NCBI RefSeq assembly: GCF_007997035.1
Contig: NZ_VOSS01000029.1
Coordinates: 1-64,000, forward strand
Reading direction: 5' to 3'
Length of the DNA stretch: 64,000 nucleotides
Origin: Ralstonia sp. TCR112
Lineage (GTDB): Bacteria; Pseudomonadota; Gammaproteobacteria; Burkholderiales; Burkholderiaceae
Part shown: piece after piece, positions 30,165 through 57,213 of the stretch
Position numbering within the stretch: the stretch's first letter is position 1
Layout of the letters: each line of letters begins with the position of its first letter
Made by a program: the position numbers and the translations under genes
The notes under the pieces: model-generated
The model's input: only the letters and a program-made list of their open reading frames with translations
The model's database searches: none
What the model was told of the DNA's origin: nothing

Positions 30165-30180
30165 CGTACCTATTTCTGCG
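30165..30180 (+). repeat. Dispersed RepA-type iteron
   Basis: CGTACCTATTTCTGCG differs from the core CGTACCCATTTCTGCG at one base and has the AAAG left flank. It overlaps the last codons and stop of the ClC gene, and is 24 kb from the origin. Confidence 0.65.
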
Positions 30181-31573
30181 TGCCGTCTGATGGCGCTGGA
30201 AGGTGCGCGGCATCGTCGCCCGTGTCCTCGCGATTGCGCGCCAGCGCACGCGCATACACGGACGGCGCGCCCGCTGCATGGGCCGTCACATAGCCGGTAA
30301 TGCACGCCAGCATGAGTGGCAGCACCACCTGATACGACAGCGTCATCTCGAAGATCATCAGGATCGACATGAGCGGCGCGTGCGTGGTGGCGGCCAGCAG
30401 CGCGCCCATGCCAACCACCGCGTAACTGACCGGCACCGGCGCCGCATCCGGCAGCAGCGCGTGCATGCCTGTGCCATACAGCAAACCTAATGCGGCGCCG
30501 CAGAACAGCGTGGGCGTAAACACACCGCCGACGGCGCCCGACCCTGCGCTCGACGCCGTCGCCACCACCTTGCAGATCAGCACCAGCGCCACCGTCTGCC
30601 ACAGCCACGGCTCGTGCAGGAACGCGTTGACCACGCTGTAGCCGTTACCCCAGACCTCGGGCACGCCCGTGGAAAGCGCACCGACGATCAACCCGCCGGC
30701 AGCCAACCGCAACGTGAGCGGCAGCTTGGTGCGTGCAAACGCATCGCGCGCGCGGTCGATCAAACCGAGCAGCAGCGGCCCCGCCATCCCCGCGGCCAGA
30801 CCCAGGCCCAGATACGTCAGCACTTCCCAGCCGGAAACGAAATCGAAGTGGGGCATCTCGTAGACGGCCCCGTAGCCGAAGAATTGGCGCACGACGATAT
30901 CGGCGGTGACCGCCGCCACGAGCAGCGGCCCGAGCGTCGCCGTGGTGATGACACCAAACACGATTTCGCAGACGAACACGGCGCCCGAGATGGGCGCGTT
31001 GTAGGCAGACGTGATACCGGCAGCCGCACCGCATGCGACCAGCAGGCGCAATTGCTCGACGGGCACGGCGGTCCAGTGCCGCAGCACACGGCCGACCAGC
31101 GAGCCGCACATTGCGGCCAGCTGCACCATCGGCCCTTCGCGCCCGATCGATGCGCCGCTGGCCACCGAGCACAACGACGACGCGCTGCGTACCAGACTCT
31201 GCCGCGCGCTGAGCACGCCATCGCCCACGGCAATGGCCTCCATATAGTCTTCGGAGCCTTTTCGCGGAATCCACTTGAGGCCCACCTGCAAGGTGATGCC
31301 GGCCAGCAGTCCACCCACCGTCGGCACCAGCAGGCGCGCCCACCACGGCAGCGCCCGCGCCGTGGCCACCAAACCTTGGTCCGTACCCGAAAGCCACCAT
31401 TGCAGTTGACGCAGGCATTCGCGAAACAGGATCGTCGACAAGGCGCCCGCGCAGCCGATGACCCCGGCAATCACGAACACCAGATGCTCGCGACCAAACG
31501 GCAGTCGGGCAATCGCGCGCCGCCACCATGGCTGGCGCGGCACATCAGGTTGAGGCGGCGGCGTGTCGGTCAT
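30170..31573 (-). CDS. ClC-family chloride channel/antiporter
   Basis: The 467-residue integral membrane protein of the ClC family has the ion-pathway motifs GASIGREGP (gating Glu present), CEIVFGV (a Glu at the position typical of proton-coupled exchangers) and GSGAVGGVFTPTLF. Both glutamates favour H+/Cl- exchange over a pure channel. It has no CBS domains, as in short bacterial members. The final codons and TAG stop lie inside an iteron copy. It probably functions in pH or ion homeostasis and is encoded as a single gene. Confidence 0.9.
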   Translation of the reverse strand: MTDTPPPQPDVPRQPWWRRAIARLPFGREHLVFVIAGVIGCAGALSTILFRECLRQLQWWLSGTDQGLVATARALPWWARLLVPTVGGLLAGITLQVGLKWIPRKGSEDYMEAIAVGDGVLSARQSLVRSASSLCSVASGASIGREGPMVQLAAMCGSLVGRVLRHWTAVPVEQLRLLVACGAAAGITSAYNAPISGAVFVCEIVFGVITTATLGPLLVAAVTADIVVRQFFGYGAVYEMPHFDFVSGWEVLTYLGLGLAAGMAGPLLLGLIDRARDAFARTKLPLTLRLAAGGLIVGALSTGVPEVWGNGYSVVNAFLHEPWLWQTVALVLICKVVATASSAGSGAVGGVFTPTLFCGAALGLLYGTGMHALLPDAAPVPVSYAVVGMGALLAATTHAPLMSILMIFEMTLSYQVVLPLMLACITGYVTAHAAGAPSVYARALARNREDTGDDAAHLPAPSDGTQK

Positions 31574-31625
31574 GTCGATTCGCGCAAGGACAGGTCGACA
31601 TGATAGCGACGGCGCCGCGGCCGTT

Positions 31626-31943
31626 TTAAGTCGATGTCGCGACCACGGCGTCTGGCAACCACGCCTGCGGTGTGTCTGCGCTGCGACGATTCGGGCCCCA
31701 CGTAATGACGCGCGCCTGCACGAGGTTTTCGATCACGAAAGGGTCGCGCGCGACGATGGCGTCGATCTCTTCACGGGATTCGGCACGCGCAAGGATCCCG
31801 CCGCCCTCACGCGGGAAGAACGGCCCCGACATCAGGAAGTGGCCGCTCGCATAGTGGGCGTCCAGATGCTCGCGGTGCGCAGGCAGCACACGATCAAGTG
31901 CTTCGAGCGGTGCGGTGTAGTTGAAAAGAATCAGGTACAGCAT
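31626..31943 (-). CDS. YciI-like protein
   Basis: The 105-residue protein starts MLYLILFNYTAPLEALD and has the YciI-fold pattern HREHLDAHYASGHFLMSGPF with the conserved His and Asp, followed by DPFVIENLVQARV. YciI-like proteins have a ferredoxin-like fold related to muconolactone isomerase, and their substrate is generally unknown. The ATG at 31943 has an AAGGAG ribosome binding site. It is downstream of the quinone oxidoreductase gene, with an iteron copy (32022) in the gap. Confidence 0.85.
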   Translation of the reverse strand: MLYLILFNYTAPLEALDRVLPAHREHLDAHYASGHFLMSGPFFPREGGGILARAESREEIDAIVARDPFVIENLVQARVITWGPNRRSADTPQAWLPDAVVATST

Positions 31944-32021
31944 GCGATGGCTCCTTATGGGATGAGGTAACACCTTCGAAACGCGAGACCCGGCAGCGTG
32001 AAACAACCACGCTCAGTGTCC

Positions 32022-32037
32022 CGCAGAAATGGGTACG
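32022..32037 (-). repeat. Dispersed RepA-type iteron
   Basis: A CGTACCCATTTCTGCG copy on the minus strand with flank AAAG, in the gap between the YciI and quinone oxidoreductase genes. Confidence 0.75.
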
Positions 32038-32071
32038 CTTTGCGCGGAAACCCTTTCGCCGCGCGGGGCTC

Positions 32072-33070
32072 TCAAGGGCGCAAGAGCAACGCCCCGACGG
32101 TCTGTCCGGCCTCCAGCGCGGTGTGTGCGGCAGCGGCGTCTTCGAGTGCATAGGTACCGCCAACCGGCACGCGCACACCATCGAGCATGCGTTGCAGCGC
32201 GGCCTGCGCACCGGTCCGATAGTTCGACAGATCGGCCATGTATCGGATGACCCCCGGCCGCGCCAACGCAATGGATCGCGATGGCCCGAGCGCTGCAAGA
32301 TCGACGGCATTTGTCTGGGCGTTGCCGACATCGCCCGCCTGACCGATGCTCGCCACCATGCCGAAGGGCCGCGTCACCGCTAGCGAGGTCTGCAGCATGG
32401 CACCGCCGATGCCGTCGATCACGTAGTCGACGCCTTCCCCGCCGGTGAGCTGGAGCACGGCTTCGCGCACATCTTGCTGGCGATGCAGCACGACGTGGTC
32501 CGCGCCGTGGCCGATGGCGATGGCGGCCTTGGCTTCGCTGCCCACCGTGCCGATCACGCGCGCCCCCTGACGTTTGGCCCACTGCACCAGCAACGCGCCC
32601 AGGCCACCGGCCGCTGCATGCACCAGCAGCGTATCGCCGGCGCGCACCTGCCGTACCCGCGTCAGCAGCATATGCGCGGTGATGCCGCGGACCAACGTGG
32701 CTGCCACGGTTTCGTCATCCAGCGCATCAGGCAAGGCAATCGCCCGCTCCGCGGGGATGTTGCGGTGGCTGGCGTAGCCGCCGGGCGCGCCGTTCATCAG
32801 GCCAGCCCAGGCCACGCGCTGGCCCACCACAAAGCCGCGCACCTCCGTACCCATCGCTTCCACCACGCCGACGCCCTCCACCCCGAGCACGGCCGGAAAT
32901 GCCGGCACCGGATACAAGCCGGTCCGGTGATACACGTCGACAAAGTTCACGCCGATAGCCGTGTGCCGCACCGTCAACGCATTCGGCCCGGGCGGCGGCA
33001 ACATCAGGTTGGCGGGCCGCAAACCCAATGCTGGTCCGGGTTCACGGAGTTGGATCACCTTGGCATGCAT
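32072..33070 (-). CDS. NADPH:quinone oxidoreductase (zeta-crystallin-like MDR family)
   Basis: The 332-residue medium-chain reductase lacks structural zinc ligands and has the quinone-reductase signatures NFVDVYHRTGLYP and VHAAAGGLGALLVQWAK (Rossmann nucleotide binding). It likely reduces quinones with NADPH by one or two electrons in the cytoplasm. A LysR regulator is divergent across 130 bp and is its probable controller. Iteron copies flank the gene on both sides (32022 and 33083). Confidence 0.9.
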   Translation of the reverse strand: MHAKVIQLREPGPALGLRPANLMLPPPGPNALTVRHTAIGVNFVDVYHRTGLYPVPAFPAVLGVEGVGVVEAMGTEVRGFVVGQRVAWAGLMNGAPGGYASHRNIPAERAIALPDALDDETVAATLVRGITAHMLLTRVRQVRAGDTLLVHAAAGGLGALLVQWAKRQGARVIGTVGSEAKAAIAIGHGADHVVLHRQQDVREAVLQLTGGEGVDYVIDGIGGAMLQTSLAVTRPFGMVASIGQAGDVGNAQTNAVDLAALGPSRSIALARPGVIRYMADLSNYRTGAQAALQRMLDGVRVPVGGTYALEDAAAAHTALEAGQTVGALLLRP

Positions 33071-33082
33071 GGCAAATGTCCT

Positions 33083-33098
33083 CGCAGAAATGGGTACG
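33083..33098 (-). repeat. Dispersed RepA-type iteron
   Basis: A CGTACCCATTTCTGCG copy with flank AAAAG on the minus strand, in the divergent promoter gap between the quinone oxidoreductase and LysR genes, 12 bp from the oxidoreductase start. Confidence 0.75.
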
Positions 33099-33200
33099 CT
33101 TTTCGGTTTCGGTGGTGACGGGTATTGCGTTCGTCACGTTGTGAAACAAGCGTAATCCGTTCAGAATCACCCGGGAATTCACTAAAACCGATCAGCTTCT

Positions 33201-34148
33201 GTGCAAAAAAGCCCAGGTCGGCCAAAAAATGCGCGTGCCTTGGCGCGTGCGGCGGCGGCCGAACCTTCTTCTTCCTTGCAGTGGGATGACGTGCGCTACT
33301 TTCTCGTGCTCGCGCGCGAGGGCAGCTTGTCGGCTGCCGCGCGGCGACTGGCGGTAGAACACACCACGGTGGCGCGGCGCGCAGACGCACTGGAGCAATC
33401 GTTGGGCGTGCGCCTGTTCGACCGCCTGCCGCGCGGCTGGCGCCTGACCGCCGAAGGCAACGCGCTGGCCGAGCGCGCTGAGCGCATGGAACAGGAAGCG
33501 GCCGGCTTTGCACGTGCCGCAGCAGGAGCGGGCAGTTTGCGCGGGACGGTTCGCATCTCCGCGCCGCCCACGGTGGCCAGCCACATCATTGCGCCAAACT
33601 TGGCGACGCTGCGCCGTCAATGGCCCGGCATCGACCTCGTGCTGCTGGGCGAAAAGCGCAACGCCAACCTGATGGCACACGAAGCCGATCTGGCAGTGCG
33701 CTTGTCGCGTCCGACGTCATCGGCTCTGGCGACACGGCCGCTGGGCGACCTCGGCTACGGTCTGTACGCCACCGCAGAGGTGTTCGCTCGCCCCGAATCC
33801 GAATGGGAATTCATCGGCTACGACGAAAACCTGCGTCACGTCCCGCAGCAGCGCTGGCTGGACAACTACGCGGGCGAACGTCGCGTGGTTTTACGCTGCA
33901 GCGATCTGGCCGCGATGCATCAGGCCGCACTGGCCGGACTGGGTGTCGCGGCGCTGCCGCACCTGCTTGGCGCTCCCGCAGAAACGGGTACGCTTTTACG
34001 CCGATTGCCCGTCGACGACCCGGCGTTGCATCGAGAAATCTGGTTGGTGATCCATCCCGACGTTCGACGATCACCGCGCGTGCGGGCCGTAGCCGACGCA
34101 TTGATCGCGCTGTTCGAGGCACAGCGACACGTTTTGGCGGGGATTTGA
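33201..34148 (+). CDS. LysR-type transcriptional regulator
   Basis: The 315-residue regulator has an N-terminal basic leader, an HTH at about 28-88 (GSLSAAARRLAVEHTTVARRADALE) and a LysR effector domain. It is divergent from the quinone oxidoreductase gene, the classic LysR-target layout. A GTG start is used at 33201. An iteron copy lies inside the coding sequence and is translated as AETGT-L, showing that the repeat has been accommodated in the protein. Confidence 0.87.
   Translation: MQKSPGRPKNARALARAAAAEPSSSLQWDDVRYFLVLAREGSLSAAARRLAVEHTTVARRADALEQSLGVRLFDRLPRGWRLTAEGNALAERAERMEQEAAGFARAAAGAGSLRGTVRISAPPTVASHIIAPNLATLRRQWPGIDLVLLGEKRNANLMAHEADLAVRLSRPTSSALATRPLGDLGYGLYATAEVFARPESEWEFIGYDENLRHVPQQRWLDNYAGERRVVLRCSDLAAMHQAALAGLGVAALPHLLGAPAETGTLLRRLPVDDPALHREIWLVIHPDVRRSPRVRAVADALIALFEAQRHVLAGI
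33977..33992 (-). repeat. RepA-type iteron inside lysR coding sequence
   Basis: A perfect CGTACCCGTTTCTGCG (minus strand) with flank AAAAG. It lies within the LysR gene and encodes Ala-Glu-Thr-Gly-Thr-Leu in that frame. Confidence 0.75.
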
Positions 34149-34153
34149 ACGTA

Positions 34154-34169
34154 CGCAGAAACGGGTACG
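34154..34169 (-). repeat. Dispersed RepA-type iteron
   Basis: A perfect core copy on the minus strand with flank AAAG, 6 bp after the lysR stop codon. Confidence 0.75.
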
Positions 34170-34185
34170 CTTTGGGATGAAAATA

Positions 34186-34212
34186 AACCGCAAACCCAAT
34201 GGATATGCGGTT
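34186..34212 (-). terminator. Weak terminator after livF
   Basis: AACCGCA pairs with TGCGGTT across a 13-base loop. Read on the minus strand it is followed by TATTTTC, so it may end the liv operon. Confidence 0.45.
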
Positions 34213-34255
34213 CTTGCGCCTCGGCAATGTTGCATGCCGAGCGCCTTCAAAACAC

Positions 34256-34977
<722 letters not shown>

Positions 34978-34981
<4 letters not shown>

Positions 34982-35775
34982 GCCGTCTCCTTCTGCGCGG
35001 CATTGCCGTTCGCGTCATCGTCGTCATCGCGGCCCAGGTACGCCTCGATGACTTGCGGGTCGTTGCGGATGGCCTCAGGCGGCCCTTCAGCGATGATGCG
35101 GCCGAAGTTCAGCACCGCAATGCGCTCGCACAGGCCCATCACGAAGCGCATGTCGTGTTCGATCATGAAGATCGTGTAGCCGCGCGCCTTGATGTTTTCG
35201 ATCTCGGCCATCAGGTCGACCTTCTCGCCGGTGTTCATGCCGGCCACGGGCTCGTCAAGCAGCAGCAGCTTGGGCTCGGTTGCCAGCGCGCGCGCCAGTT
35301 CGAGCTTGCGCTGGTCGCCGTACGAAAGGTTGTCGGCAATGTCATGCGCCTTGTGATCGAGCTTCACCCACGAGAGCAGCTCGAGCGCACGGTCGCGCGC
35401 ACGGCGCTCGGCCGCACGGTACTTGGGCAGCGACAGCAGCAGGCCCGGCGCGCCGTAATCCAGATGCCGGTGCATGCCCACCACGACGTTCTCCAGCAGC
35501 GTCATCTCCTTGAAGATGCGGATGTTCTGGAACGTGCGTGCGATGCCCATCTGCGTAATCTCGTGCGGCTTCTTGCCGACCAGGTTTTCGCCGTTGAACG
35601 TGAGCGAGCCGCCGGTGGGCGCCAGCAGGCCCGTGATCAGATTGAACACCGTCGTCTTGCCGGCGCCGTTCGGGCCGATCAAGCCAAAGATGCTGCCTTG
35701 CGGCACTTCAATGTTGACGTCCTGCAAGACCGACAGGCCGCCAAAGCGCTTGGAAATGGAGGTGAGTTTCAGCAT
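34978..35775 (-). CDS. livG: Branched-chain amino acid ABC transporter ATPase LivG
   Basis: The 265-residue ATPase has Walker A GPNGAGKTT, signature LSYGDQRKLELARAL and Walker B LLLLDEPVAGMN, plus the LivG-specific insert around NLVGKKPHEITQMGIARTFQ. The start MLKLTSISKRFGG at 35775 has a GAGG ribosome binding site; an ATG seven codons upstream overlaps livM and is less likely. It overlaps livF by 4 bp and follows livM by 7 bp, so the operon is tightly coupled. Confidence 0.93.
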
Positions 35776-35782
35776 GGCGGCC

Positions 35783-36691: not shown

Positions 36692-36701
36692 ATCGGTCTC
36701 C

Positions 36702-37583: not shown

Positions 37584-37639
37584 GATGAATCAGAGTGAGG
37601 TGCGGCCGAACGTGACCGAAGCAGTCACGACGCAGCCAC

Positions 37640-37675
37640 AAAAAAAGCGATGGGGCGTAGGTTTAGCTACGCCCC
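37640..37675 (-). terminator. Terminator between livK and livH
   Basis: The 9-bp stem GGGGCGTAG/CTACGCCCC (37652-37660 with 37667-37675) is followed on the minus strand by a T-run of seven (37640-37646). It lies after the livK stop and probably sets excess of binding protein over permease. Confidence 0.85.
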
Positions 37676-37713
37676 GCCTGTCTCGTTCAAAGGGTTTCAA
37701 CGAGAACCGAAGA

Positions 37714-38874: not shown

Positions 38875-39319
38875 GCGAACCTGCTCCTTGTTTGTCCGTC
38901 GCGATTGCTTGAATGCGATGCGTCTCGAAGATGCGCTGGCCCAACACCGTCGCTCCCCCGCATGCGCCCTGCATCGCGTCCGGACGCTCGCCTGCCGGTT
39001 TCGCGCCACGCATGACCACGTTGGCGAAATAACGGAAGACCTGCCGGGCGAGCGATGCCGGATCGGGCATGCGCGCACCGGGAGTGCGTCGAAGTGTGAA
39101 GCGAAGGCGCCATGGGTGCAGCGCTCTTGTGCGACGCGCCGGGGTGGCCGGCGCGTGCAGTCAGTCGCGGGACTTTACCGGAAAGCGCACGACCGTGCGA
39201 TAGGGGATTGTCCGCCGCCCGGCCTGGGGGGCCGATGTTGCGGCGCAATATTGCCTGCGCAATACCGTCGGATCGGCGCCAAGCGTACCCGTTTCTGCGT
39301 GCCGTGCGGCGCTGCGAAA
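38875..39319. other. Intergenic region upstream of livK
   Basis: 445 bp without a convincing gene. It must hold the livK promoter (minus strand) and carries one iteron copy at 39284. No terminator for livK-distal genes or other clear element was seen. Confidence 0.5.
39284..39299 (+). repeat. Dispersed RepA-type iteron
   Basis: A perfect CGTACCCGTTTCTGCG with flank CAAG, 20 bp beyond the stop of the diguanylate cyclase gene. Confidence 0.75.
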
Positions 39320-44830: not shown

Positions 44831-46742
44831 GTGGGTTTCACAACGCGTTCAAGCTCGATGATGAATTCTGCGCCACCTGCATCGTCACCCGCATTGCGAC
44901 CTTCGAGCCGGCCGCCAAAGTCTTCGATGATCGCCAGCGAAATTGCCAGCCCAAGCCCCAGGCCCTGACCATCGTCCTTGGTGGTGAAGAATGGCTCAAA
45001 CAGACGCGGCAACACATCGGCGGGAATGCCCGGGCCGAAGTCGCGCACGGTGATGCGTACCCATTTCTCGATGGGCTCGACACCCACGCGCACGATCGCC
45101 GATTCGGCTGCGGGCGCCTCGGCGGTGGCGTCGATGGCGTTGCGGATCAGGTTGACGAGCACTTGCTCGAGCCGCACGACATTGGCCCACACAGCAAGGT
45201 CTGCCGGCACCGGCTCGGTCACCACGGTCACGCCGGCCTGGCGCCGACGCGTCTCGATCAGCATTAGCGCCTGGCGGATGGCTTCGTCCACCGACACCGC
45301 TGCGCGTGCCGCATCGCCCTTGCGCGAGAACGCCTTGATGTGTGAAACGATGCGCCCCATGCGTTCGGCAAGTTGGCTGATGTGCGTGAGGTTGCCGCGC
45401 ACCTCGTCGATGCGGCCGCGCTCGGCAAGCTGGTTGGCGTTGTCGGACAGCGTGGTGAGCGCGGTGAGCGGCTGGTTGAGTTCGTGCGTGATGCCGGCGG
45501 CCATCTGGCCAAGCACGGCGAGCTTGCCGGCCTGCACGGCGGCATCGCGCGTTTCGCGCAGGATGCGTTGCGCAGCGTCGAGCGCCTCGACCTTGCCGGC
45601 GAGCGCGGTGTTGGCGGACGTCAACTCGGCAGTGCGCTGGACAATGCGCGCTTCCAGGTCGCGCTGGACTTCGCGCAGGGCGGCGCGCGCGCGGCGCTGC
45701 TCTTCGCGCCGGCGCTGACGCAAACGCAAAGCGACGAGCACGGCAAAGATGAGCGCCATCGCAAACGCGGCGCTCGCCCCGGCCACGAGCGCAGTGCGCT
45801 GCTCGTCGCGCGGGTCGATCAGCACGGCGACCTGCCAGCCGAGCAGGCCCACCGGGCGGTACTGCACACGCAGTGTCGATACCGATTTTCCGGGCAACGC
45901 CACGCGCACAGTCTGCGGCGGTTCGTCCGCAGAAAAGGGTACGCTCGCGCCTTGCCCGTCGTTCATGCCGAGCGGCGTGAGGATGTGCGGCGCGTATTGG
46001 CGCGTCGCGTCGAGTGCGGCGCGCTGGTCCGCGCTCAAGGTGCCGAGCGTGCGGTATTTCCACTCCGGTACGGACGACAGGAAGATCACCCCGTGGCGAT
46101 CCACCAGCAGCACCGTATCGCCGCTGCGCGACAACGTCGCTCGAACGCATCGAGGTTAACCTTCACCACCACCACGCCGATCGGCGTGTTGCCTTCGCGC
46201 ACGGGCGCGGCGACAAAATAGCCCGTCTCGCCCGTGGTGTTGCCGACGCCATAGAAGCGACCCAGCCCTTCGCGCATGGCTTCGACAAAGTACGGGCGGA
46301 ATGCGTAGTTCTGGCCGACGAACGAAGTGGGCAGATCCCAGTTGCTGGCGGCAATCGTGAGACCCGTCTTATTAATCAGGTGAGCGGCAGCCAGGTCGGT
46401 GGCCGCCTGGACTTCTTTCAGATAGGCGTTGGCTGCACGGCGCGGAACGGCGTCGCCGGCCTCGGGGTTCTCCAGAAGCGCGACGTGCAGCACGTGCTCC
46501 AACGCAGCCAGCCTCGGCAACGATTCATAGCGCGCCAGCGTGCTGCGCAGATTCTGCGCGTAGAAGGTCGTGCGCTGGCCGGCCTCTTCGGCACGGGTGG
46601 CAACGTAGCGCTGCAGGGCGATGGCGTAAGCGCCCCACCCCGCCGCCGCGCAGCACGCCGCCATGGCCAGCGCGACGGCCACGCGCCACCCTCGCCCGCG
46701 TGCGGGTGGGGCAAGGTCGGCGTGGCCGTCGGTTGGCGACAT
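44827..46742 (-). pseudogene. dctB: DctB-like sensor histidine kinase, split by a frameshift
   Basis: Residues from 46742 give an N-terminal transmembrane helix and a periplasmic double-PDC sensor (KTGLTIAASNWDLPTSFVGQNYAFRPYF, GETGYFVAAPV). The rest continues in another frame from about 46140 (SGDTVLLVDRHGVIFLSS) to a second membrane helix, coiled coil, HisKA (GITHELNQPLTAL) and HATPase (GQGLGLGLAIS). One base is missing near 46135-46138, where restoring it gives AFERTLSRSGDTV. The restored length is about 638 residues, as in DctB. It overlaps dctD by 4 bp and starts 3 bp after the kgtP-like stop. An iteron lies within it at 45928. Confidence 0.85.
45928..45943 (-). repeat. RepA-type iteron inside dctB
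   Basis: CGTACCCTTTTCTGCG on the minus strand, one mismatch to the core, with flank CGAG. It is in the sensor-domain coding region. Confidence 0.55.
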
Positions 46743-46745
46743 GGG

Positions 46746-48362: not shown

Positions 48363-48376
48363 GAGAGAGGCGAGGC

Positions 48377-49327
<951 letters not shown>

Positions 49328-49506: not shown

Positions 49507-49514
49507 TTGAAAAG

Positions 49515-49530
49515 CGTACCCAATTCTGCG
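49515..49530 (+). repeat. Dispersed RepA-type iteron
   Basis: CGTACCCAATTCTGCG with flank AAAAG, next to the parS-like palindrome at 49491. Confidence 0.75.
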
Positions 49531-49603
49531 TACTGGTCGCGCCGCCTGTGTGCACGCCGGAACGGTCGGCATCCGCTGACGGCGTCTTCAGGAATTCAGG
49601 AAT

Positions 49604-50422
49604 TCAGGAGGATGGCTTGACCCAGCCGCGGGAGACCGGCGTGGTGCGCTCGGGCGCGCGCCGGTAGGCGTCAATCTGCGCGTTCAGTTGCGCGACCTCA
49701 GCTTCGAGGGTGCGGATGCGCTGCCGGAGTTGATCGGCTTCGTTTTGCGTCTGCTGACGCACCGCATCGTTCTGCAGGCGGAGAAAGCGCTCCGTACCGG
49801 CCAGCGCGTTGGCCGCGCCCTCAAGCCGGGACACCGTTTCCATGGTCTGTTCCAGGCGCTCTAGGGTCGCGTCGGTCAACTTTGGAGGCACAGCAGGCGC
49901 AGTCGCGAGCGCCTCGCCAAGACGGCGCTCCAGGTCCGCCATCGCGGCCTGTAATTGCCGGTTGCGCGCGGCCTCGTGTTCCAGCGCGCGCTCCGCCACT
50001 TCGGCCCGAATGCGCGCTTCCATCCACTCCGCGCCGGCCCCCGGCGCGCCAATCGCACGCGAGGCGATACGGTTGCGCTCCTCACCCGGCGAAAGCGTAC
50101 CCGTTTCTGCGTGCGCCGACGGGATCGGCCACGGTTCAACGGCATCCGCGACAACGCCGCTTGCCGCAGTCCCACGCCCCTGCGCTCGATCGACTGCCTT
50201 TTGCAGCGTCGTATTGCTCGGACGTCGGCGCACTCCAGCGTCCGCCAACCACTGCACGTAGCGCCGAACGCCATAAACACGGCGCGTCACGGTGTGAACG
50301 GCTTCGATCACCTCATCCAGGAACACTGCGTTGTCGTGCGGGAAGGCAATATCCAGCCTCCGGATCGCTTCGACGATCCGCTGTTGCTGTTCAGGCGAGA
50401 AATAGAGACCGGGGCGTGCCAT
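49604..50422 (-). CDS. KfrA-like DNA-binding coiled-coil protein
   Basis: The 272-residue protein has an N-terminal helix-turn-helix-like region (about 8-90) that resembles the plasmid replication-region/KfrA N-terminal domain. It is followed by a linker and long coiled coils (about 125-255). KfrA proteins of plasmids bind their own promoter and form filaments that support partition. Its place beside parAB and repA fits such a role. An iteron copy lies in the linker-coding region and is translated as AETGT-L. The start has an AT-rich promoter with an 8-bp palindrome. Confidence 0.72.
   Translation of the reverse strand: MARPGLYFSPEQQQRIVEAIRRLDIAFPHDNAVFLDEVIEAVHTVTRRVYGVRRYVQWLADAGVRRRPSNTTLQKAVDRAQGRGTAASGVVADAVEPWPIPSAHAETGTLSPGEERNRIASRAIGAPGAGAEWMEARIRAEVAERALEHEAARNRQLQAAMADLERRLGEALATAPAVPPKLTDATLERLEQTMETVSRLEGAANALAGTERFLRLQNDAVRQQTQNEADQLRQRIRTLEAEVAQLNAQIDAYRRAPERTTPVSRGWVKPSS
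50096..50111 (+). repeat. RepA-type iteron inside the KfrA-like gene
   Basis: A perfect core with flank AAAG. In the minus-strand reading frame it encodes Ala-Glu-Thr-Gly-Thr-Leu, the same peptide as the copy in the LysR gene. Confidence 0.75.
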
Positions 50423-50442
50423 AGGGGCTGTGAAATGTCCTT

Positions 50443-50474
50443 ATAGTGTACACGAAGGGTTAAAAACCTCAACA
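50443..50474 (-). promoter_or_regulatory. Promoter with palindrome upstream of the KfrA-like gene
   Basis: On the minus strand TTGAGG and TACACT or CACTATAAGG form a sigma70-like promoter. The palindrome GTGTACAC (50446-50453) overlaps its -10 region, which fits autoregulation by a KfrA-type protein. Confidence 0.4.
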
Positions 50475-50632
50475 TCTCCGATATAGCGTTCATTATTTTT
50501 CATTTATTCGATTTTTGTTGCAGTCGCATTCCGAGCCGCTGAGTCCCGTCCCAAACACCGAGTCTGCCTGTTTCGGCGCATGTTTGCCGCCGACGGCAGC
50601 CGTGTTGGACGCACAACCAAGCAAATTGGACA

Positions 50633-50648
50633 CGCAGAAACGGGTACG
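50633..50648 (-). repeat. RepA-type iteron between kfrA-like gene and parB
   Basis: A perfect core on the minus strand with flank TTGG, so it is of the origin type rather than the AAAG type. Confidence 0.75.
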
Positions 50649-50688
50649 CCAAGGAGGGCGAGGACGTTTGAGCACCGCAGAATCGACG

Positions 50689-50716
50689 CAAAAAAAAAAA
50701 GCGCCCTATCGGGCGC
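50689..50716 (-). terminator. Terminator of the parAB operon
   Basis: The stem GCGCCC-TATC-GGGCGC (50701-50716) is followed on the minus strand by a run of at least ten T. It lies 26 bp after the parB stop. Confidence 0.9.
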
Positions 50717-50742
50717 TCCTGGCAGGTAGAACGGGGACCGGA

Positions 50743-51753
50743 CTACAGCAGCGCAACGTCCAGGCCAAATCGGCTTTTCAGTGCCTCGACCAGCGATTCC
50801 CGCGCGCCACGATCTGCCAGCTTCACATCGAGCATCACGCGTCCGGAATCCCATTCCTTGATTGTGCCGAGAAGATCACCTTCAGCGCTTCGAATTTTGT
50901 ACTGCCGGCTGACTTCCTTGACCTTGCGGGTACGCCCCTCCTGAGCCACCTTGCGGATCTGTTCGACGTCGCGGCTGGAGAGCCCTTCTTCCAGCACACG
51001 ATGCACCAGCTCCCGTGTGCGGTCTTCGCCGGCGCTCTTGAAGTACAACGTCAACTCATATCCGGTCGCGATACCGATGCCCGCCGGCCGCTCCTTCATC
51101 ACTTCGAGGACAGACTCCGGCAACTTCAACAGCGCCAGGGTCTTGTTGACCGTTCCCGCAGAGACGCCGGTAATTTCACAAATATCTTCTTCTTTTTTTA
51201 CTTTTCCTTCGTCAAGTAGCTGCCGCCAGGCGATGGCATTGTCCAGCACCGATTGGCCGGAACGCTGCTCGTTCAAGACGAACGACAGACGGTAGAAATC
51301 GATATCTGAGAGCCCGTCTTCGATGAAGCAGTCCATCTCGGCCTTCCCAGCGGCAGCCAAGGCACGCTTGCGGTAGTGGCCATCGATCAGGACATACCAG
51401 CCGGGCCGTGCCGGGTCTGGTGCCGCCAACCCAGGCGTCTGCTGACCATGCGTAGCGATGGATGCGGCCCGCTCCTGGACGATCTGCGGATCGTAAATGC
51501 GGCGGGCATTGAGCGGATTTTCCTGCAGTCGGTCCAGCGGGACCTTGATAACGCGCCGTTCGGAACTATTCGCAGGCGTGGGACTTTCAGCGCTGAAAGC
51601 GGAGGCGGGAGCCGGTTGGCCGAGCAGCCCGCGGGGGTGCGACGTAATCGCTTTCTCTGCCAAAGCAAAACGATCGACCGGTATTGCCTTGGTCTTCTCT
51701 GCGGCAATGCCGGCCAGCATGCCGTCTTTGAGCGATTTCAACTTCGCGCTCAT
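50743..51753 (-). CDS. parB: Chromosome/plasmid partition protein ParB
   Basis: The 336-residue protein has a ParB/Srx N-terminal domain (about 70-160; VPLDRLQENPLNARRIYD, LIDGHYRKRALAAAG with the CTP-binding loop) and a central HTH (about 185-225; ICEITGVSAGTVNKTLALLKLP). It also has a C-terminal dimerisation region. It should bind parS and spread, working with ParA to segregate the replicon. Its start overlaps the parA stop by 4 bp. A perfect parS candidate lies within its own coding sequence at 51584. Confidence 0.93.
   Translation of the reverse strand: MSAKLKSLKDGMLAGIAAEKTKAIPVDRFALAEKAITSHPRGLLGQPAPASAFSAESPTPANSSERRVIKVPLDRLQENPLNARRIYDPQIVQERAASIATHGQQTPGLAAPDPARPGWYVLIDGHYRKRALAAAGKAEMDCFIEDGLSDIDFYRLSFVLNEQRSGQSVLDNAIAWRQLLDEGKVKKEEDICEITGVSAGTVNKTLALLKLPESVLEVMKERPAGIGIATGYELTLYFKSAGEDRTRELVHRVLEEGLSSRDVEQIRKVAQEGRTRKVKEVSRQYKIRSAEGDLLGTIKEWDSGRVMLDVKLADRGARESLVEALKSRFGLDVALL
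51584..51599. promoter_or_regulatory. Candidate parS centromere site
   Basis: CTTTCAGCGCTGAAAG is a perfect 16-bp palindrome inside the parB coding region. The identical sequence occurs at 52429 next to parA. It differs from the primary-chromosome parS consensus TGTTNCACGTGAAACA. Confidence 0.65.
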
Positions 51754-52418
51754 ACACGTTCCTCCTGCAACAACTGCAACACCTCGTCGATCAAGATGTC
51801 GACTTCACTGATGGCTTCCCGGGCGCCCGACACGCCGTGCACCGTCGCTCCAATCGCCTGGCACTCACGAAACGCAGAGCGCGAGCCGATCATGGAATCC
51901 ATCAAAGGAATATCTCCATCATCACCAAGAATCTCAATTGCTTGTTTAGCGAGCGAGACGCGTCGCTGAACCATATTCGCGAGCACACGAATACGGAGCG
52001 TTTCGTTCGTCACCTGAGCCTGCTGAGCGAGAGCCTTGGCAGCGACCGCAGCCCACAGATCGGGCGGGGACGGCACGACAGGGATCAAGGCAATGTCGGA
52101 GATCAGTAGCGCGCTCGATGACGACGGCGAGTGAACCGCCGGAGGGCAATCGACCACGATGTAGTCGTAGTCCGCCACAAACTTGCGGACCTCGCGGTGC
52201 ATGGCACCGCCAGACGGTGCCAAACCGATCACAGAGGCAGGAAAGGGCTTGTCTTCCGGTGCTTGAGCGGCCCATCGCGTGGCCGTGCCCTGCTCGTCCA
52301 TATCGACGAGCAGCGTTTTGCTTCCCCGCAAACCAAGGGTTCCGGCGATGTGCATGCTGACCGTCGTCTTGCCGCAGCCGCCTTTCTGATTGAATATCGT
52401 TACGATCTTGGCGCTCAC
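51750..52418 (-). CDS. parA: Partition ATPase ParA
   Basis: The 222-residue Walker-type ATPase has deviant Walker A KGGCGKTT (12-19), Walker A' VDMDEQGTATRW and Walker B VVDCPPA. It is short and lacks an N-terminal HTH, as in type Ib ParA proteins, so autoregulation by ParA itself is unlikely. It positions replicon copies through ATP-driven nucleoid binding with ParB-parS. It overlaps parB by 4 bp. A perfect parS candidate sits 10 bp upstream of its start and may also control the operon. Confidence 0.94.
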   Translation of the reverse strand: MSAKIVTIFNQKGGCGKTTVSMHIAGTLGLRGSKTLLVDMDEQGTATRWAAQAPEDKPFPASVIGLAPSGGAMHREVRKFVADYDYIVVDCPPAVHSPSSSSALLISDIALIPVVPSPPDLWAAVAAKALAQQAQVTNETLRIRVLANMVQRRVSLAKQAIEILGDDGDIPLMDSMIGSRSAFRECQAIGATVHGVSGAREAISEVDILIDEVLQLLQEERV

Positions 52419-52428
52419 TGGCCCTCCA

Positions 52429-52444
52429 CTTTCAGCGCTGAAAG
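52429..52444. promoter_or_regulatory. Candidate parS site upstream of parA
   Basis: CTTTCAGCGCTGAAAG, extended to an 18-bp palindrome (52428-52445). Its position 10 bp from the parA start would let ParB repress parAB. Confidence 0.65.
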
Positions 52445-52445
52445 T

Positions 52446-52698
52446 CAGCAGCGCTCATCTTAGGGAAGACCGACAAAAAACACAAGATCGATAAAATTCA
52501 ATTCATATAAATTTCACCGATGGGCCTCATCGCGGGCACGCCAAAGGCCGGAAAAGACTGGGTTTTCAATTCACCTAAATTGAGATCTAAATGCGGTCTT
52601 TAGCGCATAACGATAGGCGTTCAGCCTTGTATTTACGAGCTTCCTAGGTGTTTACCAGTGAGGTGCATAAAAGCGACATTTGGGAAAAATGCCGCCCA
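52446..52698. other. AT-rich intergenic region between parA and csp
   Basis: No convincing gene. It is AT-rich at 52475-52525, which probably holds the parAB promoter on the minus strand. No iteron was seen here. Confidence 0.5.
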
Positions 52699-52727
52699 TC
52701 GACACTCTGCTCCAAACTGGTTATGAT
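52699..52727 (+). promoter_or_regulatory. Sigma70-like promoter of csp
   Basis: TCGACA and TATGAT are separated by 17 bp. The predicted start near 52734 gives a 5' leader of about 110 nt before the cold-shock gene, a length typical of temperature-responsive csp leaders. Confidence 0.55.
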
Positions 52728-52842
52728 GCTTAGACAGTCGTCTGAAGACTTTGTCTACGCAAGATTCGGAATCAGCCGGTTCTTCGTGCGATGTCCGGAT
52801 CGGCTGGACGACGTGTTTTTTGTTTTTTAAAGGAATTTTTGC

Positions 52843-53046
52843 ATGGCCACGGGTACTGTCAAATGGTTTAACGAAACCAAAGGCTTCGGCTTCATCACTC
52901 CGGACGGCGGCGGCGCAGATCTGTTCGCGCACTTCTCCGAAATTCAGGGTTCGGGCTTCAAGACCCTGAAGGACGGCCAGAAGGTCACCTTCGAGGTGAA
53001 GCAAGGCCCGAAGGGTCTGCAAGCCTCGGCGATCAAGCCGGAATAA
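52843..53046 (+). CDS. Cold-shock protein (CspA family)
   Basis: The 67-residue single-OB-fold RNA chaperone has RNP1 KGFGFI (13-18) and RNP2 DLFAHF. Length and sequence are typical of CspA-type proteins. It is monocistronic, with its own promoter, a leader of about 110 nt and a strong terminator. It lies between the partition operon and repA but is in the opposite orientation to both. There is no evidence that it is part of the replication machinery. Confidence 0.95.
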
Positions 53047-53073
53047 GTTTCGGGCTGATCGCCTGAGATGAGA

Positions 53074-53105
53074 AAAGGGGAGCATCTGCTCCCCTTTCTT
53101 TTTTG
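53074..53105 (+). terminator. Terminator of csp
   Basis: AAAGGGGAGCA pairs with TGCTCCCCTTT and is followed by CTTTTTT. It may also serve repA on the minus strand. Confidence 0.9.
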
Positions 53106-53125
53106 CCCGACGCTTTCGCTTGATT

Positions 53126-54202
53126 TCAGGCCAGCTTCCGTACACTGGTACGCGAGGGCTGCAGAATCAGCGCCTTGGAAGAGTCTGCGTCCACCTTCGC
53201 GTCCGGATAGACGACCAGTACGTCCTTCAGCGCCTTGCGGAACAACGCGCGGAATTTCCGCTCGCTTTCGGTTTCAGTTCCGAACTGCATCTGCAGCGCT
53301 TCCCAGGGGATCTCTGTACGCTTTTGGATCGTGAAGAAGCGGTATGTAAGCCAGGAATACACATCCAGCGCGAACGGCGATTGTTTGAGTGCTTTCAATG
53401 CGCGCATATCCACCGGCACCGGCCGATTTACAAGTTCGTTGAAGAACGGTTCGGACAGCACCACGAAGCTCTCGAACATCGAGCCCTGGCCCGGCTGCAT
53501 CGGATCCCACCAGGTGGACAGCTGGTCCGCCAGCAAGTAACCAATGCGATCGATCGAGAGCGGCTCCTGGTTCTGATTCTGGCTGCTCGGCGCCGACTTG
53601 TTCTGCACGATGGCGATCGTGGCCGAGAACAGGCGAATCATCTGCTGGCGCACCAGCGTCATGGTGCCCCGCTTGCCGCCCGTGGCCATCGGGATGCCCA
53701 GGTTGTACATGAACTCGGACAACGAGTTGCCCAGCGAAATGCGCCGGTCTTCCACTGTGCCCTGGAATTCGCCGCGCTTCTTCTTCGCCATGATCTCCTT
53801 GCCGATCCAGGCGAGCATCAGGCGCGGATACGAACCATACGGATAGCCGAAAGAGACCGTCTCCGAAACGATGCGCTGGCGCCCATTGCTGGCCCGCTCC
53901 GAACGCTGCTGCGTGAAGTAGCCCGGCTGGATCATCAACGAAATGTTGCCGCTGGAGCGTGTCCAGACCGGCGGCGCGCCCTTGGGAGCACGATAGGGGA
54001 GCGTGACCTGGACGCTGGCGCGGCTGAGGAAGCCGACTTCGCCGCTTTGCCAGGCGTCTTCGCGTTCCATTGCCTGCGCTTCATCGAACAGGCGCTGAAA
54101 CTTCTCCGGCGCGGCAATGACTTGCCCTCCCGAGGGGACGATGATGCGGCCGGACGCATTGTCGTCCGGTTTCCCATTGGGTGTGAGGCGTTTGGTGACC
54201 AT
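53126..54202 (-). CDS. repA: Replication initiator RepA
   Basis: The protein of about 358 residues is of the plasmid RepA family. Recognisable segments are MIRLFSATIAIV, SIDRIGYLLADQLSTWWDP, SPFALDVYSWLTYRFFTI and PWEALQMQFGTE near the C-terminal DNA-binding winged helix. It should bind the iterons that begin 53 bp upstream of its start and initiate replication of this replicon. The nearest iteron (54255) is placed to allow autorepression. ATG at 54202 is chosen; a TTG three codons upstream is the alternative, and neither has a strong ribosome binding site. Confidence 0.88.
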   Translation of the reverse strand: MVTKRLTPNGKPDDNASGRIIVPSGGQVIAAPEKFQRLFDEAQAMEREDAWQSGEVGFLSRASVQVTLPYRAPKGAPPVWTRSSGNISLMIQPGYFTQQRSERASNGRQRIVSETVSFGYPYGSYPRLMLAWIGKEIMAKKKRGEFQGTVEDRRISLGNSLSEFMYNLGIPMATGGKRGTMTLVRQQMIRLFSATIAIVQNKSAPSSQNQNQEPLSIDRIGYLLADQLSTWWDPMQPGQGSMFESFVVLSEPFFNELVNRPVPVDMRALKALKQSPFALDVYSWLTYRFFTIQKRTEIPWEALQMQFGTETESERKFRALFRKALKDVLVVYPDAKVDADSSKALILQPSRTSVRKLA

Positions 54203-54254
54203 GGTGGGCAAGAATTGTTCAGAGCCTTTGTACTAAAACGCCTTCGCCTTGTCA

Positions 54255-54270
54255 CGCAGAATTGGGTACG
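54255..54270 (-). repeat. Iteron nearest repA
   Basis: CGTACCCAATTCTGCG on the minus strand, 53 bp from the repA start and within its likely promoter. Confidence 0.75.
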
Positions 54271-54441
54271 TTTTCTTATTTTTGCTCGTTGTCGCGGGAA
54301 GGGCATCGGTGGGCAACCGTCAAGGTTGTCCACGGAAGACCTTTCCTCACTACAAGCCATATATACCTTCTACGTTTACTACAGGTAAACCGTATACGCG
54401 GCCCGCAAAGCCTTGCCGGTATTAGGTTCAGGGGGGTAAAC

Positions 54442-54546
54442 CGAACCAGATTCTGCGACTGCCCGAACCAGATTCTGCGCGATGGCGTACCCGCTTCTGC
54501 GCGAAACCGTACCCGCTTCTGCGCATTGGGCGTACCGGAATCTGCG
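54442..54546 (+). repeat. Regular iteron array (five copies)
   Basis: Copies start at 54442, 54464, 54486, 54508 and 54531, so spacing is 22, 22, 22 and 23 bp, about two helical turns. The first two are divergent (CGAACCAGATTCTGCG) and the third and fourth carry CGTACCCGCTTCTGCG. All face the same way, which places RepA on one DNA face. Confidence 0.85.
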
Positions 54547-54560
54547 GGGATAACATCATG

Positions 54561-54581
54561 TTGTCCACAGTGTTATCCACA
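54561..54581 (+). promoter_or_regulatory. DnaA boxes
   Basis: TTATCCACA (54573-54581) is a perfect DnaA box, and TTGTCCACA (54561-54569) is one base off. They follow the regular iteron array directly. A weaker match, TTGTCCACG, is at 54326. Confidence 0.75.
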
Positions 54582-54626
54582 GAAAACAGAGGCTGGGCAG
54601 CGTGATCCGGGCTGTTTTTGTCTGTG

Positions 54627-54861
54627 CGTACCCGTTTCTGCGGCCGATTCGGCGTTCTTTTGGCAGGCCCTCGACCTGACAGCTGGAGATGCGTACCCGT
54701 TTCTGCGGGGATATGGGCTGGGTCGACACGATCACCGTACCCAAATCTGCGCGTGTGCGGATCGCTGTGATTGTTCGAGCCGAGTCTGTTAAACGCTTCC
54801 CATGAAAGCGAGCACACGCTCTACACAGTGTGGCTGCGTTACGTGCGTACCCGTTTCTGCG
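54627..54861 (+). repeat. Origin iterons, four copies
   Basis: Copies at 54627-54642, 54692-54707, 54736-54751 (variant CGTACCCAAATCTGCG) and 54846-54861, all on the plus strand with irregular spacing. Confidence 0.8.
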
Positions 54862-54927
54862 CCGCGGCTCTCGGGCAGAGCTGATCGCGCCCCATCGAAC
54901 GTTTTGTCTTGATGCTCGAATTCCGAA

Positions 54928-54943
54928 CTTTCATCGCTGAAAC
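54928..54943. promoter_or_regulatory. parS-like site in the origin
   Basis: CTTTCATCGCTGAAAC matches the parS candidate at 14 of 16 positions and is embedded among the iterons. Confidence 0.35.
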
Positions 54944-54996
54944 CTTCAGGGAAGGGAGCGGTTTGCTGATACCTCCAGGCTCCGGCTGCTGGCCAC

Positions 54997-55347
54997 CGTA
55001 CCTGTTTCTGCGGGTAAAAAGCCTTATTGGCCAAAGGCTTGGCGTGACGCCTTGCAAACCAGGCGTACCCGTTTCTGCGGAAGCCCGCGCAGAAACGGGT
55101 ACGCCCGATTCGGGCCCCACTCGCAGAAACAGGTTCGCTTTGAGACAGAGATGACGCGCGAGCATGCGCAGAAACGGGTACGGCTTCGCCTTCATGGCCC
55201 GCAGAAACGGGTACGCATCTGCGTTGTGGTTGCGCATGCCGTCCCTTGGAGATGTACGTACCCGTTTCTGCGGAGCCACGCGCAGAAATGGGTACGTCAA
55301 TCGCTACGCACGCCGCGTAGTATCTGGTTTTCGCAGAAACGGGTACG
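54997..55347. repeat. Origin iterons, nine copies in both orientations
   Basis: Plus-strand copies start at 54997, 55064 and 55257. Minus-strand copies start at 55088, 55122 (variant), 55167, 55200, 55281 and 55332. Two head-to-head pairs (55064/55088 and 55257/55281) each have starts 24 bp apart and form large inverted repeats. Confidence 0.8.
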
Positions 55348-55637
55348 GTTTATGGAAGATTCGGACAGCCTTCGCCGCCGACGTGGCAGGTCTTGTCCCA
55401 TGGGTGCACAGGTCATGCGTTTCGGGCATCATGCGCATCCCGCACGCTGGCCCGACCCTATGGCCGGCGCGTTCTCCATCATCCGATTCGCATGAACAGT
55501 ATTTGGACCGCGCCGCCTCGTGGTGCCGGAAGCTTGCTAAGAGTAGCCTCGCCCCATGGTGGGCGTGCAGTGGGGGAGCCACGCGCAGGACAGCGCCGGC
55601 CGACGATGACACTTCACAACAAGAGGAGACAACCTGA

Positions 55638-56941
55638 ATGACTTGGCTCGCGCGCACCTTCAAGCTCGAGGAACATCAGACCGACGTTCGCACGGAAGTG
55701 CTCGCCGGACTGACGACGTTCCTGACGATGGCGTACATCATCTTCGTCAACCCGAACATCCTGGCCGACGCCGGCATGCCCCACGACGCGGTGTTTGTCG
55801 CCACCTGCATCGCCGCGGCGATCGCACCATCATCATGGGGATGTACGCGAACTACCCCATCGCGATGGCGCCGGGCATGGGCCTGAACGCCTACTTTGCG
55901 TACGCGGTGGTCAAGGGCATGGGCTTTACGTGGCAGGCGGCGCTGGGCGCGGTGTTCATTTCCGGCTGCCTGTTTCTGCTGGTGAGTGTGTTTCGCATCC
56001 GCGAGATGATCGTCAACGGCATCCCGCATTCGATTCGCGTGGCGATCACGGCCGGCATCGGGCTGTTCCTGGGCATCGTGTCGCTCCGGGGCGCAGGGCT
56101 GATTGTCGGGAATCCGGCGACGCTCGTGACGCTGGGCGATGTGCACCAGCCCTCGGTCATCTTGGCGGTGATCGGCTTCTTCGTGATCGTGGCGCTGGAC
56201 CACCTGCGTGTGAAGGGCGCCATCCTGATCGGCATTCTGGCCGTGACGGCAGCGAGCTTCTTCTTTGCGGGCAACACCTTCCACGGCGTGGTCTCGATGC
56301 CGCCGTCGCTTGCGCCCACGCTGATGCAGCTCGACATCATTGGCGCGCTGTCGGTCGGCATCCTGAATGTCGTGCTGGTGTTTTTCCTCGTGGAGCTGTT
56401 CGACGCGACCGGCACGCTGATGGGCGTGGCCAACCGCGCGGGCCTGCTCAAGCAAGGCAAGATGGATCGTTTGAACAAGGCACTGCTGGCCGACAGCACG
56501 GCCATCATGGCGGGCTCGCTGCTGGGGACGTCGTCGACCACCGCCTATATCGAAAGCGCTTCGGGCGTGCAGGCGGGCGGCCGAACGGGGCTGACGGCGC
56601 TGACGGTGGCCGCGCTCTTCCTGCTGTGTCTGTTCTTCTCGCCGCTGGCGGGCGTGGTGCCGGCGTATGCGACGGCGCCCGCGCTGCTGTATGTGTCATG
56701 CCTGATGTTGCGCGAGCTGGTCGACCTGAACTGGGAAGACACCACCGAGGCCGTGCCAGCGGTGCTGACGGCGCTGATGATGCCGTTCACGTATTCGATC
56801 GCCAACGGCGTTGCGTTCGGCTTCATCACCTACGCGGGCCTGAAGCTGTTCACCGGGCGCATGCGCGAGGTGCCGGTCATCGTGTGGATCATCTCGGCGG
56901 TGTTCCTGTTCCGCTTCTTCTATCTGTCCGGCGGGCATTGA
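55638..56941 (+). pseudogene. Purine (AzgA/PbuG-like) permease, split by a frameshift
   Basis: The first 60 residues (MTWLARTFKLEEHQTDVRTE, then LTTFLTMAYIIFVNPNIL and AVFVATCIAAAI) run in one frame. The rest continues in another with IIMGMYANYPIAMAPGMGLNAYFAY and the later motif GTSSTTAYIESASGVQAGGRTG. The sequence at 55821-55829 lacks one G compared with the expected ATC-GGC-ACC. The restored protein of about 434 residues has 12-14 helices and matches guanine/hypoxanthine/adenine:H+ symporters. The start has an AGGAGA ribosome binding site. No purine riboswitch was recognised upstream. The frameshift may be a sequencing error. Confidence 0.85.
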
Positions 56942-56970
56942 GCGCCAGTGTCTTCAAGCGGATCACAACG

Positions 56971-56997
56971 AACGCGGACTTTCGGGTCCGCGTTTTT
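56971..56997 (+). terminator. Terminator after the purine permease
   Basis: AACGCGGAC pairs with GTCCGCGTT across a six-base loop and is followed by TTT. It lies 30 bp beyond the permease stop. Confidence 0.85.
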
Positions 56998-57019
56998 CTT
57001 TGGAGCATTTGCGCCGAAG

Positions 57020-57213
57020 CGTACCCATTTCTGCGTGCGATTGCGCAGACGAGCGTACCCGTTTCTGCGTACTGCCGTCGACGATTCAACGACAAAGCGT
57101 ACCCAATTCTGCGGACGAGGTAAGCGACAACTGTCGCGCAAATCGCGCCGACAATTGGTTTCGACAATGCGTTGATATGGCACCCACGCAGGCGGGGCGT
57201 ACCCGTTTCTGCG
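57020..57213 (+). repeat. Iteron cluster downstream of the permease (four copies)
   Basis: Copies at 57020-57035, 57054-57069, 57098-57113 and 57198-57213, all on the plus strand, in the gap between the permease and the integrase-like gene. Three have AG before the core. Confidence 0.8.

Follow-up and report, generated by a model that had tools for sequence, protein, structure and literature searches.

The window analysed here, a stretch of 64,000 nucleotides from Ralstonia sp. TCR112, is the first 64 kb of the 88.9-kb contig C212 in an assembly of 5.44 Mb (292 contigs, completeness 97.6%). It contains a replication origin built from copies of a 16-mer, the iteron CGTACCC(G/A)TTTCTGCG, as well as solitary copies of the same 16-mer spread among the surrounding genes. 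These outlying copies, referred to here as the halo, are the subject of our analysis. Because the window encodes an initiator of the RepA_C family that is 97-99% identical to other Ralstonia RepA proteins (87-95% to those of Cupriavidus-type loci), followed by parA and parB, the replicon is the chromid, that is, the second chromosome or megaplasmid, of a Ralstonia. The origin sits between repA and a purine permease gene, and the features of the region are as follows.

50743..51753, - strand, parB (HTH_ParB, TIGR00180)
51584..51599, unstranded, candidate parS, perfect palindrome CTTTCAGCGCTGAAAG, within parB
51750..52418, - strand, parA (AAA_31, CbiA/ParA)
52429..52444, unstranded, candidate parS, second copy of CTTTCAGCGCTGAAAG, upstream of parA
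53126..54211, - strand, repA, chromid replication initiator RepA_C (PF04796; Pfam E 1.4e-32)
54255..54270, - strand, iteron in the upstream (promoter) region of repA, about 50 bp upstream of the called frame, putative autoregulatory site
54442..55347, unstranded, origin iteron array of 18 copies, from the motif scan
54561..54581, + strand, two DnaA boxes, TTGTCCACA and TTATCCACA, starting at 54561 and 54573, inside the array

The five array copies nearest repA (54442, 54464, 54486, 54508 and 54531) are spaced 22-23 bp apart, and the other 13 occur in both orientations. Consensus iterons are mixed in the array with degenerate copies (CGAACC..., ...AATCTGCG). When compared by sequence with PDB chains, RepA had no match at E up to 1. 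By predicted structure it comes nearest to RctB, RepE54 and Pi (Foldseek), that is, it has a predicted Rep winged-helix fold. With a PF04796 gene of this predicted fold, direct repeats about two helical turns apart and DnaA boxes, the locus has the make-up of an iteron-type RepA_C origin. All 50 loci that we collected by RepA similarity (L031-L080, a set in which R. solanacearum is not represented) have 15 or more copies in their origin array, and in 43 of them an iteron lies no more than 150 bp upstream of the repA match. The co-occurrence of motif and RepA, together with the related iteron of plasmids that have a related RepA, suggests that RepA binds the 16-mer at the origin. This has also been proposed in print: 12 repeats of the same motif beside repA-parA-parB in R. 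mannitolilytica (PMC10986519), at least 12 in C. metallidurans CH34 (PMC2864759) and 20 in C. necator NH9 (PMC6379261) are described as (putative) RepA-binding sites. In the passages concerned, the CH34 and NH9 iterons are placed upstream of repA or at the origin, those of R. mannitolilytica are given without positions, and outlying copies are mentioned for none of the three.

Beyond the origin, the window has 15 further copies.

30165..30180, + strand, one mismatch, AAAG-type, overlaps the 3' end of a clcB-like gene
32022..32037, - strand, exact, AAAG-type, intergenic
33083..33098, - strand, exact, AAAG-type, in a divergent gap
33977..33992, - strand, exact, AAAG-type, inside a LysR-type regulator gene
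34154..34169, - strand, exact, AAAG-type, in a convergent gap
39284..39299, + strand, exact, flank CAAG, just downstream of a GGDEF/PAS gene
45928..45943, - strand, one mismatch, inside a histidine kinase gene; 16 of 16 positions invariant in 10 aligned sequences
48957..48972, + strand, iteron-like copy, one mismatch, inside galU; the weakest member, with no match in the relative G033
49515..49530, + strand, one mismatch, AAAG-type, intergenic; 16 of 16 positions invariant in 11 aligned Ralstonia sequences
50096..50111, + strand, exact, AAAG-type, inside a coiled-coil gene beside parB
50633..50648, - strand, exact, intergenic, just downstream of parB
57020..57213, + strand, cluster of four iterons (57020, 57054, 57098 and 57198) just 3' of the purine permease gene

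A first-pass annotation of this DNA had reported 14 of these copies, and the motif is indeed present at all 14, exactly at ten and with one mismatch at four (30165, 45928, 49515 and 57098). The fifteenth, at 48957, also with one mismatch, had been overlooked. The earlier view that a repeat of this kind is implausible by chance is borne out: at up to two mismatches the window holds 31 copies vs 0.08 expected from shuffles, among which the largest count was 1. Likewise, the motif is confined to 30-57.2 kb, as had been noted, with nothing at 1-30164 or 57214-64000. The wider pattern CG(T/A)ACCNNNNTCTGCG has 34 matches, 15 outlying and 19 in the origin. Outside the origin, the numbers of window sites with 0, 1, 2, 3 and 4 mismatches are 10, 5, 0, 3 and 14, compared with 0, 0, 0, 1 and 17 for the reversed motif. 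The outlying copies therefore form a sharp, discrete class and not the tail of a continuum.

A scan of the whole assembly at no more than one mismatch gives 32 copies: the window has 29, contig C201 two and C236 one, and there is no further such copy on any other of the 292 contigs; the motif is thus not equally frequent off the chromid. Copies with two mismatches number 20, of which the 18 outside the window look like background (the reversed control gives 17 at up to two mismatches). In their flanking sequence, the copies on C201 and C236 match three distant ones on the repA contig of four relatives, where their distance from repA is 87-183 kb (G003), 130-218 kb (G004), 136-256 kb (G005) and 75-141 kb (G033). 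The span of 27 kb given by the first-pass annotation thus holds within the window and is a lower bound only, with three copies whose counterparts in relatives are 75-256 kb from repA. In G033, which has three contigs, the repA contig accounts for 36 of the 37 pattern matches, and the remaining one, on C1, is a degenerate form; the other contigs of G003 and G033 have degenerate matches only. Another repeated 16-mer, CGTACCCATCTCGGCG, two mismatches from the iteron, occurs at eight places in the assembly (G000:C212:86048 and contigs C18, C23, C45, C49, C89, C179 and C266) and looks like a separate repeat family.

The halo is widespread in relatives. At least one outlying copy is found in 49 of the 50 RepA loci, the exception (L043) ending 1.8 kb upstream of repA. 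Counterparts of 50633, 50096 and 49515 are present in all ten Ralstonia loci, and the four copies at 57.0-57.2 kb in all nine that reach that far. In an alignment across Ralstonia of the nine window sites nearest repA (3-11 sequences each, only 3 for 50633), core identity is 0.94-1.00 vs 0.58-0.92 for the flanks; for the weakest core, that of 57020 (0.94), 19% of 16-base windows reach at least the same identity. Of all the outlying groups, only that 3' of the permease gene has a counterpart beside the same gene in Cupriavidus (seven of seven genomes or records). The other window genes beside outlying sites have no relative in the fetched Cupriavidus loci at a cut of 55% identity and 50% coverage. 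Most individual positions turn over, but the dose of sites around the origin is maintained. The distance statistics come from four complete Cupriavidus chromids, which have 21, 15, 16 and 23 matches outside the origin, 75 in total and on both sides of it (for CH34, two of those counted are distant degenerate matches). Of these, 19, 14, 16 and 20, or 69 of the 75, lie no more than 150 kb from repA, where 2.4, 1.6, 1.9 and 2.5 (about 8) would be expected, and the sites thus have the layout of titration sites, near the origin and on the same replicon. Among the matches listed, no genome without this RepA has the motif in abundance. In plasmids with a related RepA (two whole, of 64.7 and 38.0 kb, and 50 kb of a third of 106.6 kb) every iteron found is within about 2 kb of repA. 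The possibility that the outlying copies are neutral relics, seeded by duplication, conversion or integrated plasmids and now decaying, would fit the exact or near-exact copies on smaller contigs of HN-2 and G004. We nevertheless consider it highly improbable: outside the origin the window has no two-mismatch decay products, the copies have little sequence in common beyond the 16-mer and its near flanks, the cores are conserved against diverged flanks and the preference for gaps is strong.

As the first-pass annotation had stated, most of the outlying copies lie in gaps between genes, 10 of the 15 window copies according to our home-made gene call. By the same call, 106 of 118 outlying copies in Cupriavidus are intergenic vs 22.4 expected, and 24 of 38 in Ralstonia vs 5.2 expected, the latter being largely the same sites in four genomes. 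In Cupriavidus gaps of 20-700 bp, 26 sites are in convergent gaps (11.7 expected by length), 21 in divergent gaps (39.1) and 40 in tandem gaps (36.1), a count of 87 sites in which some at locus edges were left unclassified, in which copies of one cluster or common to related species are not independent, and which, like the other gap statistics, is conditional on loci having been fetched around sites. The bias in gap type is therefore the opposite of operator placement. That RepA or some other protein uses the sites as operators of nearby genes, as would be conceivable for some sites, which are upstream of genes in gaps of the divergent or tandem type, is improbable in our view. The adjoining genes differ between genera, except at the permease group, which is 3' of its gene, and in V. 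cholerae RctB appears, from passages of PMC11711613, to regulate only its own transcription.

The outlying copies also differ from the origin copies in sequence. Counts were pooled from the window and seven Cupriavidus genomes or records, within the fetched loci only, which outside the origin cover 19 of 21 copies in CH34, 15 of 16 in EM10, 19 of 30 on the repA contig of A5-1 and at least 11 in G001. The canonical 16-mer is seen in 109 of 133 outlying vs 69 of 149 origin copies, a G at position -1 in 119 vs 96, and AAAG directly upstream in 47 vs 13 (p = 4e-8), while AAAG precedes other CGTA occurrences in 0.07-0.3% of cases. The exact 19-mer AAGCGTACCNNTTTCTGCG occurs eight times in the assembly of the window and never in the origin. 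An extended 5' flank is therefore a tendency of the outlying class. A natural interpretation is that a site on its own requires more contacts than one in the array and would thus have a higher individual affinity.

The 16-mer might also be thought to be the parS centromere of the chromid ParB. In other genomes parS sites are clustered near parAB and spread over about 100 kb, and the outlying copies resemble them in both respects. We give this reading almost no credence. The 16-mer is not palindromic and forms an origin array with a 22-23 bp repeat beside DnaA boxes, and a separate sequence, the palindrome CTTTCAGCGCTGAAAG, fits parS instead, its 14-bp core being present in all 50 of the Ralstonia and Cupriavidus RepA loci. 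The half TTTCAGCG of this palindrome resembles the iteron end TTTCTGCG, perhaps by chance.

The explanation that we favour, at a probability of roughly 60%, is control of the initiator by dose. The halo would consist of strong RepA sites that are copied soon after initiation and, by titrating or handcuffing RepA, would restrict chromid copying to once per cycle. Besides the origin array there would be about 18 RepA sites, 15 within 24 kb and three at 75-256 kb in relatives. As they are near the consensus and often have the AAAG flank, each is probably strong and able to stand alone; the weaker copies of the origin array may act cooperatively. Since most of the halo lies near the origin, it would be doubled within minutes of initiation. 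If forks are assumed to move at 700 bp/s, one minute suffices to copy 12 of 21, 11 of 15, 11 of 16 and 13 of 23 of the Cupriavidus matches outside the origin. The new sites would take up RepA and could also be linked to the origin array by bridging RepA (handcuffing), so that initiation-competent RepA would fall at the two daughter origins and a second round would be blocked. Autorepression of repA through the iteron at 54255 would act in addition. The quantity maintained would be the site dose near the origin and mostly not the site beside a given gene. In a toy equilibrium model, which is illustrative only as its protein numbers, affinities and fork speed are assumed, free RepA at 180 s is 0.23-0.55 of its prior level with the halo vs 0.52-0.73 without it. 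Among the roles that the first-pass annotation had offered, titration and handcuffing remain the best. Its reading of the copies as RepA-type iterons beyond the origin, far above chance, stands, and its suggestion of a transcription-factor role is disfavoured by the gap types and by the differing neighbour genes.

Several observations weigh against control by dose. The AAAG flank is in the minority, 86 of the 133 outlying copies lacking it, and 5 of the 15 window copies overlap called coding frames. In HN-2, copies are found at distances of 231, 315 and 748 kb, and two smaller contigs have three exact ones between them. In C. necator A5-1, at least seven non-degenerate copies on the 4.69-Mb repA contig are more than 150 kb away from repA, and on the 4.3-Mb contig an exact copy (G007:C8:3153986) is present inside open frames. 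Genome G013 (g5), whose RepA is 89% identical, has just three iteron-quality outlying copies, and a large halo is therefore not required for RepA function. In the toy model the halo would deepen the drop in RepA after initiation only moderately, and an autorepressed initiator may compensate for titration. In V. cholerae, deletion of one extra-origin site had no growth phenotype, according to passages of PMC3937223.

The main rival, which may coexist with dose control, is that the halo organises the origin domain. RepA bound to the halo would bridge the sites and the origin, condensing or positioning the region, and any control of replication would be secondary. The origin lies at the centre of the halo, whose span of about 150 kb is the scale over which parS sites are spread on other chromosomes. 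The candidate parS of this chromid is not spread, with 2-3 copies of its 14-bp core in each of the six genomes or records searched, which leaves room for another organiser. We regard this role as unlikely, however, since in vivo bridging of distant sites by RepA is an assumption, solitary 16-mers are sparse and ParABS is already present for segregation.

Control by dose would have a counterpart in Vibrio, where RctB sites outside ori2 titrate RctB and lower origin copy number, as described in passages of PMC3937223. As for RctB in V. cholerae, the sites lie beyond the origin of a chromid, on the same replicon, and are replicated early, and RctB is the closest solved fold to Ralstonia RepA. Unlike in V. 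cholerae, the initiator belongs to the sequence family RepA_C and not to that of RctB, each complete Cupriavidus chromid has 15-23 matches outside the origin, on both sides of it and with the extended AAAG class, and no second site type like the 39-mer was identified here. A crtS-like site on the main chromosome was searched for with the iteron motif only, so that a crtS of other sequence would escape, and the window assembly has no main-chromosome copy, none with at most one mismatch occurring outside C212, C201 and C236. The same motif gives only degenerate matches on the other contigs of G003 and G033, but the exact copy noted above on the 4.3-Mb contig of A5-1. The datA locus of E. coli, which titrates DnaA near oriC (PMC3937223 and PMC6090056, in the passages cited), is likewise an initiator-binding locus near the origin that is duplicated early; it is a single DnaA locus, whereas here many single sites are dispersed and the initiator is of plasmid type.

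Extra-origin copies of a chromid iteron are also found in Burkholderia-type chromids. Chromosome c2 of B. cenocepacia has a different iteron with further copies, including a cluster 140 kb away, for which the passages of PMC4948915 give no function. Scanning 60 family genomes for that iteron gave matches in 18, with zero throughout for the reversed control. A Rep3 initiator (PF01051) was found in four of five Burkholderia-type loci, the fifth (L172) having been scanned in one frame only. Distances were computed for three of the 18 genomes, selected because their Rep3 gene could be located: of the 18 outlying copies that these have on the Rep3 contig, 17 lie within 160 kb, and G020 has one more copy on another contig. 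In other genomes of the set copies are distributed over several contigs, and in G053 one lies about 210 kb from its nearest fellow. Three contigs (G058:C3, G060:C2 and G020:C2) have a copy of the iteron, or a cluster of copies, at a distance of about 147-155 kb from Rep3, compared with 140 kb in B. cenocepacia, and this is possibly a conserved distant regulatory locus. Both initiator and iteron thus differ from those of Ralstonia. A similar layout is seen around initiators of three sequence families that appear to share the Rep winged-helix fold. The fold comparison covers RepA and RctB; Rep3, the family of RepE and Pi, has this fold as well.

A few other features of the region and of the scans are recorded here. 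Three GTWWAC sites (GTTTAC, GTAAAC and GTATAC) lie at 54374-54397, upstream of repA. Between parA and repA is a cold-shock protein gene (52843-53046, + strand), which is 95-97% identical in Cupriavidus, where a 68-70% identical copy is present across the origin. The gene after parB (49604-50422, - strand) encodes a coiled-coil protein of 272 amino acids, KfrA-like by eye and with no Pfam family above the cut-off. Outlying iterons are found inside this gene and on both its sides, and KfrA_N proteins are likewise encoded next to the iteron array in Burkholderia-type (Rep3) chromids. Exact or near-exact iterons are present on smaller contigs, perhaps plasmids, at G002:C3:20514, G002:C4:62784 and 198425, and G004:C15:2442, C34:42379 and 42555, and C38:21792. 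These isolated iterons, and that on the 4.3-Mb contig of A5-1, are possible RepA sites on other replicons. Carriage by phages was considered and rejected: when IMG/VR was scanned with a 17-mer, 12 stretches had a single match each, judged to be background from a rough estimate of collection size, with no control.

Origin iterons of this sequence were already known, as were extra-origin sites for RctB, and such sites are mentioned for B. cenocepacia. A literature search, mostly at the level of titles and abstracts and without supplements, found no report of outlying iterons in Ralstonia or Cupriavidus. What appears to be new here is a RepA_C halo with an extended site class, a preference for gaps, turnover of positions and co-occurrence with RepA. 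We tentatively speculate, while thinking it somewhat more doubtful than sound, that chromids in general gain a halo of initiator sites when a plasmid is domesticated, as in the RepA_C chromids of Ralstonia and Cupriavidus, the Rep3 chromids of Burkholderia types and the RctB chromids of Vibrio, and that the RepA_C halo is a class of its own (an AAAG-iteron of about 20 bp) with its own mode of RepA binding, which would set once-per-cycle replication. The way in which an origin of plasmid type comes to fire once per cycle on a replicon the size of a chromosome has been worked out mainly for Vibrio. The halo is a concrete candidate, in that it is conserved and initiator-specific, tracks RepA and is missing from the three related plasmids examined. 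It recurs with initiators of two other families, and its defined sites of 16-20 bp make the once-per-cycle question testable.

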